Positions 44,485-48,714 of a stretch of 64,000 nt of DNA are shown here, piece by piece (the stretch's first letter is position 1; each line of letters opens with the position of its first letter). Both the position numbers and the translations under genes were made by a program. The notes beneath the pieces were generated by a model. That model was not told where the DNA came from, made no database searches, and worked only from the letters and a program-made list of their open reading frames with translations. The DNA comes from Oceanipulchritudo coccoides (GTDB lineage Bacteria > Verrucomicrobiota > Verrucomicrobiia > Opitutales > Oceanipulchritudinaceae): the NCBI RefSeq assembly GCF_010500615.1, contig NZ_JAAGNX010000002.1, forward strand, positions 610,990 to 674,989. The letters run 5' to 3'.

Positions 44485-45513
44485 TCATTTTTTGATGACA
44501 GCAAAGATCATTTTTCCGCCTGCAGACGGAATAATTGAGTCGACGGAAGCAGTGACCGTTTCCCCGATCAGGTGCTTTGCCTCGGAGACCACGACCATTG
44601 AGCCATCAGGCAGATAGCCGACTGCCTGGTTGTGGTCTTTGCCCGGCTTGGTCAATTTGATACGGAGTTCCTCCCCGACCAGAAGTTGGGGATTCATGGC
44701 CTTGGCGAGGGCGTTGAGGTTGAGCCAGTCGATATTATGAAACTCTGCGATCTGAGCCAGGTTGTAATCGGTCGTCATGAGCTTCGCCTTGAGGGATTGC
44801 GCCAAATAAACGAGCTTGGCATCAACACGCTGTCGATTACTGACGCTGCTTTCGTTGATTCTCAGGTCAAGGTGCTCCATTTCGCGGAGCTGATTGAGCA
44901 CCTCAATGCCCTTGCGGCCCTTGGCCTGCCGCTCTGGATCCTTGGAATCGGCGATATTCTGTAGCTCATCAATGACAAAACGCGGGATGACTAATCCAAA
45001 TCCCATGAAGCGGCTTTCACAAATGCCGACTAGCCGGCCATCGATGAGCGCGCTGGTGTCGACAATCGCAAGGGGGACTTCCACTCCGTGAGGAACAAAT
45101 CGAATGTAGGGAATTACCAGATTGAATTCATCACGGCCGCGCAGCGCAATGACGGCCCCCAGATACATAAGAATGACATAAAGCGACAATTGGATGAGAT
45201 ATTTATTCTGGGTCAGAATCATGCTGCCTTCATCGAGGGCGTCGAAGGGCACATCAAAGAAAGGTGAAGCGGCGATTAATTTTGCACAGGCCCAGCCAAC
45301 AAACAGCCCAAACGTCAGGGCGGAGAGTCCTCGCAGGGAGAAGCCCTTCAGGAGGACATCGACGAGGACGACAAGGGCGCCCATTGCGGCGGCAATAAAA
45401 ACAGCAACCCATCGATATTCGTCCCATTCGGGAACCGAGTAGCTGACGAGCCACCCGGCAGCGATGCAGAGCAGGATAAAAAACAGGCGGAGAATCCGGA
45501 TCGTGTAGGCCAT
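44485..45513 (-). CDS. Membrane-anchored PIN-TRAM domain protein (YacL-like)
   Basis: The protein has four hydrophobic spans in residues ~8-125, then a PIN domain (~145-265) opening with AIVDTSALIDGRL and with VIPRFVIDELQNIADS and MTTDYNLAQIAEFHN, so the acidic RNase residues look intact. A C-terminal TRAM domain follows (~270-340, GEELRIKLTKPGKDHNQAVGYL), a small RNA-binding beta barrel. This is the same architecture as Bacillus YacL and cyanobacterial homologues. A role in RNA turnover or surveillance is inferred from the domains. It is on the same strand as the two motor-like genes, 142 nt downstream of them. Confidence 0.9.
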   Translation of the reverse strand: MAYTIRILRLFFILLCIAAGWLVSYSVPEWDEYRWVAVFIAAAMGALVVLVDVLLKGFSLRGLSALTFGLFVGWACAKLIAASPFFDVPFDALDEGSMILTQNKYLIQLSLYVILMYLGAVIALRGRDEFNLVIPYIRFVPHGVEVPLAIVDTSALIDGRLVGICESRFMGFGLVIPRFVIDELQNIADSKDPERQAKGRKGIEVLNQLREMEHLDLRINESSVSNRQRVDAKLVYLAQSLKAKLMTTDYNLAQIAEFHNIDWLNLNALAKAMNPQLLVGEELRIKLTKPGKDHNQAVGYLPDGSMVVVSEAKHLIGETVTASVDSIIPSAGGKMIFAVIKK

Positions 45514-45655: not shown

Positions 45656-46993
45656 TCAATTTTGTGGGGCCTGTAGATTGATAAAGTTCGTGAATTCCGG
45701 ATCCTGCAACAGGCGAGCGCGGTTGTTTCCTACCATGACACCGATCAGTTCACCCGTCATGGAGAAGACATAATCGCCCGGATTTGGGGTAAATTCCCCA
45801 AAGAGGCGGTTAAAAAGCTTGGATTCCACCTCAAGGGTGCCCGATTCCCCGGGTGGGACACGTACCGGGATCTCCCCATAGAGTTCTTGATCATCGCTGA
45901 CGAGGACGGCCTCGGAAAACCGGAATGGATCAGTCGAAAGGGAAAATATGGCCAGCCCGGCGCTATCTGTAATGGAATCCGGTACCCGCACAGCGGCAAT
46001 GCCCTGGTCTGCCTCAAGAAATCCCAGTTGACGAATGGCAAATGACCGGTTTCCGATGCTCAGGATGGCTTCAGTGGAAATACCCTGCCTTCCACCGGCA
46101 AACGGGGTGTTGACGGTGGCAAACAGTGCGTGAGTGCCTTGCGGGGTCTGTACAAGGATGGATTGAAGGGCGACTTGACGGGTGCTTGAACCCAGAAAGG
46201 CCCGTTCTTCCCATTGGAAGCGCAGGAAGACGCGGTTGTCCTCGAATTTCTTGAATATTGCGTTGAGGGATAGCGGTTGGGCCTGCCGGAACTCTTCTTG
46301 CAGGGCGGAAGACGAAGCCGCCAGCTCACTCACGCCCACGGCCAGATTTTCCGTTTGTTTTTGCGCGCGCTCAGCCTCAATCCTTGCCCGCTCGACCTCC
46401 GCTTGGGCCGCGATAAGGTTTTGCTCGAGCATTTCCTTTTCCGTTTCCCGGATCTGGAGTTGCGTTGAAAGCTGCCGTTGCTGGCCCTCCAGCTCGGTCA
46501 ACTTGCTCTTTGCGGTTTCCAGCGCTTGGTTTTTCTCAAGAGCCAGGGCTTGTTGAGCCTGTAGTTCCTCCTGAAGTTGTCGCGAGCGAGCTTCCTTTTC
46601 CTGAAGGGATTTGGCGAGGTTGGCTTTTTCCTCGAGGGTCAGCTCCAGAGACCCGCGGGTCTGGGCGAGTTCCGTGGAAAGGGCAGTTGTTTCCTGTTCC
46701 TTCTCCTTGAGTGCAGTATTCACTTCCTCAAGTGTTTCCGAGGTTTCCTGCAGGTTCTCGTTGGTCTTGGTCAGTTGCTCACGTGTATCATCGAGGCTGC
46801 TTTCAACTTCCTGCCGCTGGGCACTTTCATGTTCAAGCGACAGCTGCAGCAGCTCCAGCATTTCCTCTGCTGCCTGGTCGCGCAGAGCTTCCTCATCGAC
46901 GGCATCCACTTCCACCGTCGGTTTGAATTCAACAAGGGCGAGAATGCTGATCAGCAGGAAATCGCAGATGATGATGAGCAAGGTCTTGTTCAC
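45656..46993 (-). CDS. MotB/ExbD-like stator subunit with coiled coil and pseudo-trypsin domain (inferred)
   Basis: Not recognised as any named family. Residues 4-22 form a single membrane span with a lone Asp at position 11 (IICDFLLISILALVEF), the pattern of the proton-binding Asp in MotB, ExbD, TolR and ZorB. Residues ~33-236 are a long heptad-rich coiled coil made almost only of Glu, Gln, Leu, Lys and Ala. Residues ~250-430 are beta-rich and follow a trypsin-like outline: ATVNTPF where the His motif should be, GIAAVRVPD like the DIAVLKV strand, and PGDYVFSMTGELIGVMVG in place of GNSGGP...GEVIGV. His and Ser are missing, so it would be a dead protease fold. The start overlaps the end of the MotA-like gene by 4 nt. 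Confidence 0.72.
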   Translation of the reverse strand: MNKTLLIIICDFLLISILALVEFKPTVEVDAVDEEALRDQAAEEMLELLQLSLEHESAQRQEVESSLDDTREQLTKTNENLQETSETLEEVNTALKEKEQETTALSTELAQTRGSLELTLEEKANLAKSLQEKEARSRQLQEELQAQQALALEKNQALETAKSKLTELEGQQRQLSTQLQIRETEKEMLEQNLIAAQAEVERARIEAERAQKQTENLAVGVSELAASSSALQEEFRQAQPLSLNAIFKKFEDNRVFLRFQWEERAFLGSSTRQVALQSILVQTPQGTHALFATVNTPFAGGRQGISTEAILSIGNRSFAIRQLGFLEADQGIAAVRVPDSITDSAGLAIFSLSTDPFRFSEAVLVSDDQELYGEIPVRVPPGESGTLEVESKLFNRLFGEFTPNPGDYVFSMTGELIGVMVGNNRARLLQDPEFTNFINLQAPQN

Positions 46994-48714
46994 TTGTCCT
47001 TTTGGGAATCGTTCTTTTCGAGGATCAGCAACCGGCGATAAGGCCTGAGAAACCCGACCTTCAGGACAGCGACAAAAATAATCCCGAACAGGGTGGAAGC
47101 GTAGGCCGCCATCAGGCTGGCATCGACGACATTCAGGACAACCAGGATGAGGGAGGCCACGGTGCCGCCAAGCCCGACATACAGACCGAGATCAAACAGG
47201 TTTTCCTCGTTATCCAGAAGATGGAGTTTGACACGGGCCGCATGGCGTTGGCGCCTCACTTCGGCAATCTTGAGAAGACAGAATATGAAGACGAGTAGCT
47301 GAATGATAAAAAACAACAGGAGGATGAGGATGGTGACTTGGTCAATCATGGTTGTTGAATCGGTTGGTGATTGTAAATCCTGGCTGTCGGGAAGAATTTG
47401 CGCGAGCTGGATCTGAAGGGTGCCTTGTTCATTTGGTTGGAAATCAAGCAGGCCGGGTTCAATTAAAATCCAGACAAGCATCATGACAAGGACGCCGCCT
47501 ACGATGCTGTCGAGATTTATGAGGACCCGTCTCTGGTGATCCGGGCGCGCCTGCCCCTTGAAAATGATCACGCGCAGGATTGCCACGAGGAAAAACCCAC
47601 AAAGGGCGAATGCCGCCGCGCGTGCCCCGATTGCCAGAACAGGCCAGGTCTCCGCAAATTGTTTGAAGGCATGTTGATTCTGGCGGATTTTTTCAGGAAG
47701 GGCTTCCCAGAGTCCGGGAGGATCATAGACCGGCTTGTCAAATTGCAAAAGCGCCTCCATGGCTCCCTGACCCAATGCAAGGGCCACCTCAAGGCCCTCC
47801 CATCCGCGCTCCTTGTGCTGACCAAGGTATTGTATCAGCCCTTCAGGTGAGCGCAGGTTGAAGACAGCGCTCATGATCAGGGGCAACCGGTCTGGCGACT
47901 CCTGAATTGCCTGGGCAATCATGAAAAGCTGTTCAGGATTCTCCAGGCTGCGCACCAGTTCTTGGAACTGGAGCCAGGTTGCGCGGCGCCCGATGGTCAG
48001 GAGAGCGATGTAGGAGCTCTCCAGTTGGGTGACCGCAGACAAGTCGCCCTGCAGGGCATCCGCCATGTTTTTCAATATTGGGGACCGGATACCATCCGGG
48101 AGAGCCGATGACTGCTCCAGCAGTGCAGTGGCAAGAATTGTCGCTTCCAGCGGTTGTCCGGAAGTGGAGTAGACTGGATAAAAACGCTGCCAACCGCCAA
48201 GGGTGCGCGTTTTTAGTATGAGTTGTACATTCTGGTTGGAGCTCTGGCTTAAGAAGGCGGCCAATTCAATCCGGTTCTCGCCGGGAAGCAGGGTGGGAAT
48301 AACCGCCGGTTCATCCTCCCTGAGATAGGGTGCCTGCCGCAGGAATTGCTCGTAAAAGGGCGCTGGACCGCCACTCCACCGGTAGAGAGGGTTTTCTTCA
48401 AGCAGTGCTTGCTGACGGCTGGCCAGTCCTGTTGGGATCTTGTTTCCCGTCGTCCGTTTCCATGTTTGCAAGAGGGAGCCGGCCGGCCCGGGCCGCCCGG
48501 CCTGCAGTTGGCCTTCAGCCTGCGAGAGGAGAGTTGGCGTATCCTTTGCCGCAGCCTCAAGGACCAGCGGGGAGACTGAACGAAAATAGGAAGGAATGCA
48601 CATTCCCAGCGCCAACGCGGCAAAAGCGAGAAACAAGTTTATCATTACCAGGCCAACTAGTTGCCAGACTGGTCGTCGTTTGCGGGTGGGCGGCTTTTCC
48701 AGGGTGCTTCCCAT
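46990..48714 (-). CDS. MotA/TolQ/ExbB-like membrane protein with large extracytoplasmic insert (inferred)
   Basis: No named family recognised. Six spans are predicted: ~17-39, 358-385, 402-420, 458-483, 508-530 and 533-556. The last two resemble the channel pair of ExbB/MotA: GLYVGLGGTVASLILV and AAYASTLFGIIFVAVL, keeping both polar Thr positions (518, 541) and separated by a very tight turn, with a basic cytoplasmic stretch before (VRRQRHAARVK) and after (RPYRR). Between spans 1 and 2 lies a ~315-residue helical domain (TPR-like in appearance), probably periplasmic. It is the first gene of the pair; the second overlaps by 4 nt. Divergent from def, 56 nt away. Confidence 0.72.
   Translation of the reverse strand: MGSTLEKPPTRKRRPVWQLVGLVMINLFLAFAALALGMCIPSYFRSVSPLVLEAAAKDTPTLLSQAEGQLQAGRPGPAGSLLQTWKRTTGNKIPTGLASRQQALLEENPLYRWSGGPAPFYEQFLRQAPYLREDEPAVIPTLLPGENRIELAAFLSQSSNQNVQLILKTRTLGGWQRFYPVYSTSGQPLEATILATALLEQSSALPDGIRSPILKNMADALQGDLSAVTQLESSYIALLTIGRRATWLQFQELVRSLENPEQLFMIAQAIQESPDRLPLIMSAVFNLRSPEGLIQYLGQHKERGWEGLEVALALGQGAMEALLQFDKPVYDPPGLWEALPEKIRQNQHAFKQFAETWPVLAIGARAAAFALCGFFLVAILRVIIFKGQARPDHQRRVLINLDSIVGGVLVMMLVWILIEPGLLDFQPNEQGTLQIQLAQILPDSQDLQSPTDSTTMIDQVTILILLLFFIIQLLVFIFCLLKIAEVRRQRHAARVKLHLLDNEENLFDLGLYVGLGGTVASLILVVLNVVDASLMAAYASTLFGIIFVAVLKVGFLRPYRRLLILEKNDSQKDK

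Follow-up and report, generated by a model that had tools for sequence, protein, structure and literature searches.

The 64,000-nt stretch of the Oceanipulchritudo coccoides genome analysed here (NZ_JAAGNX010000002.1, positions 610,990 to 674,989 of the forward strand; the whole stretch is called the window, and all coordinates below are window positions) carries two adjoining genes, A and B, whose products form a putative ion-driven membrane motor. A preliminary description of this DNA had proposed two overlapping genes, and both open reading frames (ORFs) lie where it had placed them, the TGA stop codon of A sitting within the GTGA of B to give an overlap of 4 nt. A and B are a conserved single-copy pair that is still held together in homologues down to about 30% identity, and this conservation is far beyond chance. 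Scans of both proteins against Pfam, NCBIfam, PADLOC and PHROGs returned only coiled-coil cross-matches and a sub-threshold anti-sigma match to A, and the pair has no family name in these libraries. No paper describing it was found among the titles and abstracts of open-licence papers.

The AlphaFold2 (AF2) model of A, built on an alignment of 70 sequences, has a mean predicted local distance difference test (pLDDT) score of 91.3 and contains six long spans (Table 1). An all-helical block of approximately residues 49-356 lies between spans 1 and 2, in agreement with the large helical insert reported earlier; this periplasmic domain matches no known family in scans of Pfam and other libraries. 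The preliminary description had A ending in a two-helix channel. The terminal hairpin is indeed present, but it belongs to a protein of six spans rather than standing as a terminal pair. By the positive-inside count, the N terminus with its RKRR, the loops 385-392 and 489-508 and the tail are inside, and the 309-residue block (26 K/R against 32 D/E) and the loops 419-458 and 527-532 are outside. Because the basic residues fall on one side, spans 4-6 are predicted to run out-in, in-out and out-in. In order and orientation, spans 4-6 thereby match spans 1-3 of ExbB/TolQ, and spans 3-6 match spans 1-4 of MotA. The cytoplasmic parts of A amount to no more than a loop (489-508) and an approximately 18-residue tail, with no counterpart of the cytoplasmic helical domain of MotA and ExbB.

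The two last spans of A carry the ExbB signature (GLxGTV, then AxxxTxxG), and they do so where, by topology, the pore of ExbB/TolQ lies. Escherichia coli ExbB has G144-L-F-G147-T148-V and A177-L-L-A-T181-A-I-G184 in its pore helices, and TolQ is alike. The residues Gly514, Gly517, Ser540 and Gly544 of A are invariant in all 70 sequences, as are Gln472, Glu419, Pro420, Asn502 and Glu503. A pore signature, G-[LIVMF]-x-G-T-[VIALF] followed by A-xxx-T-xx-G in consecutive hydrophobic segments, was scored on 2.2 Mb of fetched loci. It was found in 107 of 140 A-family ORFs and in 39 of 42 ExbB/TolQ ORFs, and in none of the 1,599 other ORFs, 182 of which have at least two spans. In a branch of short A homologues described below, the sequence GLFGTV is identical, letter for letter, to that of E. 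coli ExbB and TolQ, and the Gln matching Gln472 is present in 17 of 17 members.

Protein B is modelled by AF2 (mean pLDDT 81.6) as one span (residues 3-18), an unbroken helix (44-213) and a beta domain (254-439). The preliminary description had given B a single N-terminal span with a lone Asp and had named loss of that residue among homologues as a result that would speak against its interpretation. An Asp at residue 11 is present in 114 of 114 distinct B sequences from all branches, of which 65 were picked without an Asp criterion and 49 partly through an N-terminal pattern requiring D or E nearby. The helix that follows is a continuous heptad coiled coil, with a hydrophobic period of 3.50 in 55 of 55 homologues. 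It had been put at about 200 residues; the coiled coil is there, but its length in this protein is 170 residues. Between the flanking conserved residues, the rod measures 150-323 residues with 18 distinct lengths among the 55 homologues, and 14 of these 18 are offset from the register of the window protein by a multiple of a half heptad. With a rise of 0.1485 nm per residue, the rod would be 22-48 nm long in the homologues and about 25 nm in the window protein.

The B head matches HtrA/Deg proteases in structure (Foldseek E 1.5e-6; VIA with residues 241-438, Z 12.0-12.8 for HtrA/Deg chains and 13.4 in the top row), and it also matches DegS and, in the anti-sigma factor RsgI9, the pseudo-protease S1C domain (7sjy; VIA Z 12-13 for the group). 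Counted back from the conserved Gly of GELIGV, the position of the catalytic Ser is 405; it is occupied by P in the window protein, mostly by R, T, A or E elsewhere and by S in 2 of 55 homologues, so that the Ser of GNSGG is missing. Comparison of the head with two HtrA proteins of the same genome by hhalign gave no residue alignment; the claim of an HtrA fold rests on structure. Of the trypsin-like head without His and Ser that had been described earlier, the fold is strongly supported and the loss of Ser borne out, whereas the His position could not be located with confidence. As modelled, the head has an HtrA/chymotrypsin fold and is catalytically dead; it differs from HtrA/Deg and RsgI9 in lacking the catalytic Ser and a PDZ domain and in being borne on a motor-like rod.

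Table 1. Features of the A-B locus (window positions)
Feature	Position	Strand	Basis or remark
Gene A	46990-48714	-	574 aa; six-span membrane protein, ~310-aa helical periplasmic domain, ExbB-like pore hairpin
A span 1 (16-39), N terminus RKRR inside	48598-48669	-	AF2 helix; positive-inside count
A periplasmic all-helical solenoid-like domain (48-356)	47647-48573	-	AF2
A span 2 (358-384)	47563-47643	-	AF2
A span 3 (393-418), then E419-P420 invariant 70/70	47461-47538	-	AF2 and alignment
A span 4 (459-488), Q472 invariant 70/70	47251-47340	-	AF2 and alignment
A cytoplasmic loop (489-508), ~20 residues	47191-47250	-	AF2 and topology
A span 5 (509-526), G514-L-G-G517-T518-V519 at the place of ExbB GLFGTV (T148)	47137-47190	-	
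A span 6 and C-terminal helix (533-573), A537-Y-A-S-T541-L-F-G544 at the place of ExbB A177-L-L-A-T181-A-I-G184	46996-47118	-	
Gene B	45656-46993	-	445 aa, GTG start, 4-nt overlap with A
B N-terminal span (~3-20)	46934-46987	-	AF2
B Asp11, acidic residue within the span	46961-46963	-	Alignment
B coiled-coil rod (44-213), heptad period 3.50	46355-46864	-	AF2 and periodicity
B head (241-438), HtrA/chymotrypsin-like fold without catalytic Ser	45680-46273	-	Foldseek, VIA

A and B are inherited together. Among 105 genomes of the order that are at least 90% complete, counting B only where the match covers more than the coil, both genes are present in 65, A alone in none, full-length B alone in none, and neither is intact in 40. 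Separate occurrence of the two genes had been named beforehand as a result against a joint system; they accompany each other in 65 of 65 genomes of the order, those with unlinked genes included. In 12 genomes without B beside A, B is encoded elsewhere, for example 70 kb away. In families f17 and f21 (e.g. G032, G373 and G393), A and B are unlinked yet both kept, which suggests separate operon break-ups in the two families. The genomes listed without A are in many cases small (0.8-2.3 Mb) and in some cases not (G052, 4.3 Mb; G349, 4.8 Mb). B matches without A in the 105 genomes amount to seven coil-only cross-matches and one head-only protein. The latter, in a genome in which A was not found (G024, L253:6218-7033), has 272 residues and a signal-like N terminus with neither Asp span nor coil, and its gene has the deformylase and Fur-like neighbours also seen in the window. 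Because this genome keeps the head only, loss of A and loss of the Asp span and rod go together; the Asp span and the coil thus go with A.

The pair extends beyond the order. In a species-wide genome collection, one scan found 140 relatives, of which 80 were kept, with titles mostly of Opitutales or Verrucomicrobiota; outside the phylum the search reached near relatives only. Within the phylum, 97 of 289 genomes have A; they belong to the order of the window or lie outside the class. Most homologues outside the class have only 170-220 residues (about 190) and match the last four spans of A (E 1e-14 to 1e-24). By hhalign, the short form is homologous to the long one (probability 99.7%, E 1.8e-26), and a reverse search recovers the same genomes, nearly always with one place each. 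The B protein adjoining short A, of about 485-630 residues, likewise has an Asp span and a rod, and its head is homologous (98.3%, E 1.4e-14). In this branch, B is often followed by a gene whose product joins a Ser/Thr kinase to an FGE-like (sulfatase-modifying-factor) domain (8 such loci in the cluster, e.g. L163:7534-9837 and L170:8457-11045) and is a possible partner. A third form of A, in family f36, has about 600 residues, and genomes of family f2 (e.g. G017:C49) encode an A of about 765 residues with what seems to be an additional segment in the periplasmic domain (between model positions ~157 and ~189). Two public contigs of metagenome-assembled genomes labelled Rhodospirillaceae and Akkermansia muciniphila (L086 and L136) carry an Opitutales-like A, and these labels are probably wrong. 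Cultured relatives include Cerasicoccus, Coraliomargarita and Ereboglobus.

In Opitutales, the pair lies among genes for peptide deformylase and for rlmN-like, methyltransferase and radC-like proteins (names assigned partly from the sequence by eye), a neighbourhood that gives no functional clue. A PIN/TRAM-domain membrane protein (44485-45513, minus strand) adjoins the pair in the window. Because it is retained there in the two nearest relatives only, it is probably unrelated. The genome of O. coccoides itself has eight matches to PF01618 and eight to PF02472, and the A-B pair is therefore additional to its Ton/Tol-like systems.

These features lead us to propose, with a probability of about 0.7, that A and B constitute an ion-driven membrane motor which works in the manner of MotAB, ExbBD and TolQR and has an architecture of its own. 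The preliminary reading, a proton-powered motor that turns or pulls a long rod with a peptide-binding head, is thus partly supported, the peptide-binding role of the head being putative. Several results weigh against this proposal or fall short of supporting it. Thr518 and Thr541, which the preliminary description had set at ExbB-like positions, do stand at those places but are not invariant: residue 518 is Thr in 66 and Ser in 4 of the 70 sequences, and residue 541 is Thr in 54 and Asn in 16. The Pfam families MotA_ExbB (PF01618) and ExbD match neither A nor any member of the sets A1 and A3, and PF01618 misses A in its own genome even with E up to 10. Against PDB sequences, A1 gave no match, and the matches of A3 were limited to designed helical proteins and further chains without relation to it. 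When the pooled A core was compared with 44 ExbB/TolQ sequences by hhalign, the pore helices were aligned with P=0.02, a score that 6-7% of window-shuffled decoys reach as well; with an A-only profile, the best alignment differed between two runs. A lack of structural likeness between the C-terminal helices and MotA/ExbB had also been named beforehand as a result against the idea; Foldseek and VIA searches with the A monomer had no MotA/ExbB chain among the matches listed, the best rows having Z of about 7. Because the A model is long and monomeric, this absence is not evidence. The co-occurrence counts (65 of 105) carry no correction for kinship. Homology of A to MotA and ExbB is neither demonstrated nor claimed, because the profile comparison is not significant against shuffled decoys; the proposed analogy in function is based on the motif, the topology and the partner.

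The lack of significant profile and fold matches would suit a trans-envelope tether, in which A is unrelated to MotA/ExbB, GxGT and AxxxT are ordinary helix-packing motifs, the Asp of B only orients or pairs its span, and the two proteins link the inner membrane to the wall or outer membrane. Such a tether seems quite improbable in view of the paired motif, which occurs in 0 of 182 other ORFs with two or more spans from these bacteria, a topology that matches ExbB, and an Asp that is found at residue 11 in every B and whose span is gone where A is gone.

The proposed motor shares with ExbB-ExbD and TolQ-TolR (PF01618/PF02472) the pore signature GLFGTV...AxxxTxxG with Thr at the places of T148 and T181, the topology of the last three spans and a partner with one N-in, Asp-bearing span. 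It differs in that A has no detectable profile homology, no cytoplasmic domain (a loop of about 20 residues instead) and, in the Opitutales branch, extra spans and a 310-residue helical periplasmic domain. Pfam scans of B found neither an ExbD domain (PF02472) nor an OmpA-type domain; a long coiled coil and an HtrA-like head take the place of the former. With the MotA-MotB stator, the pair shares the four-span core (in the short branch), the order of the genes with A ahead of B and a 4-nt overlap, and local sequence (AMVGTFLG in MotA and AYASTLFG in A; YADFMTAMMAFF in MotB and ICDFLLISILAL in B). In contrast to the stator, A has no torque-generating cytoplasmic domain and B has no OmpA-type peptidoglycan domain.

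A divergent GldLM-type secretion or gliding motor, or a Zorya-like defence motor, would be a known non-flagellar system that accounts for the pair. GldL-GldM is likewise a two-gene motor whose second, axle subunit is a long periplasmic arm, and ZorAB combines MotA-like and MotB-like subunits with a long coil. By published descriptions, however, GldL has two spans with a Glu, GldM carries an Arg in its span and its arm is built of beta-domains, whereas A has six spans (four in the short branch) and B has an Asp, a coiled-coil arm and an HtrA-like head. The long coil of ZorAB belongs to ZorA on the cytoplasmic side; here it belongs to B on the periplasmic side. PADLOC profiles of ZorA and ZorB gave no match to A and only a coil match to B (E 0.63). 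Rather than in an island, the pair lies beside housekeeping genes; it is single-copy, is kept widely across the order and has no defence context. Membership in either known system is thus highly improbable.

MotAB relatives have been classed into FIT and GIT types, with ZorAB and GldLM set apart as remote (PMC12505986). A 2025 study proposed that vWA proteins with their own Asp-bearing transpore helix (TPH) insert into TolQ-like pentamers and that further 5:2 systems remain to be found (PMC12204202). The TPH-vWA transducers resemble B in being periplasmic transducers with an Asp-bearing transpore helix of their own and no ExbD/TolR, and they occur in Verrucomicrobia among others; they differ in the vWA head, the recognisable TolQ partner and the mostly heterologous pairing of transducers. 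The plan of A-B is analogous to that of the vWA transducer/TolQ-like system, but both subunits differ.

The gene pair, its co-inheritance, Asp11, the pore signature, the predicted topology, the rod, the head fold and the loss of Ser are observed; for the stoichiometry, ion flow, motion, partner of the head and purpose of the complex, we infer the following picture. Several copies of A, five by analogy, would form a ring in which spans 5 and 6 line a pore with their Gly/Thr faces. Two B chains would insert their N-terminal spans into this pore, and Asp11, one per chain, would be the ion-binding site. Ions moving inward past Asp11 and Thr518/Thr541 would either rotate the B dimer against A or push and pull it. 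In contrast to MotB, ExbD and TolR, B would run straight on into a stiff dimeric coiled coil of sufficient length to span the periplasm, and its dead HtrA-like head may contact a partner at the cell wall or outer membrane. The helical periplasmic domain of A may be a collar round the base of the rod or an anchor to the wall. Because A is almost without a cytoplasmic domain, the work would be delivered on the periplasmic side. The odds are about even for the fullest form of this proposal, namely an unrecognised family of ion-driven A5B2 rotary motors that is ancient within its phylum, is represented outside the class by a minimal form with four spans, has no cytoplasmic torque domain and uses as its axle a coiled-coil drive shaft of 22-48 nm, which brings a pseudo-HtrA head to the wall or outer membrane.

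The same complex could have an ion path or a buried Asp and perform no mechanical work. B would then be a sensor or scaffold tethered in the envelope, with a pseudo-protease head for the binding of peptides or proteins (cf. DegS and RsgI-type proteins), and A would be its membrane anchor or a gated channel. HtrA, DegS and the RsgI9 S1C domain, which the head matches, are domains known for ligand sensing; the head-only protein of G024 with its signal-like N terminus indicates that the head can work without a motor; and the kinase gene that often follows B in the short branch would suit signalling. However, A has almost no cytoplasmic part to relay a signal, a sensor needs no long unbroken rod, and the fixed position of Asp together with an ExbB-type pore signature are needs of a motor rather than an anchor. 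We therefore regard a sensor or scaffold as unlikely.

The known ion-driven motors of this class (the flagellar stator, Ton, Tol, Gld, Agl and Zorya) make a short list, and each addition to it has opened a physiological function. If the motor reading is true, the A-B pair would be an unrecognised functional relative of the flagellar and Tol/Ton motors, with axle and long lever joined in one polypeptide and with members also in lineages outside the class. The pair would offer a test case for motor action without a cytoplasmic domain. It would also offer a simple test of whether the axle dimer turns, because the rigid rod and its head would be a natural reporter.

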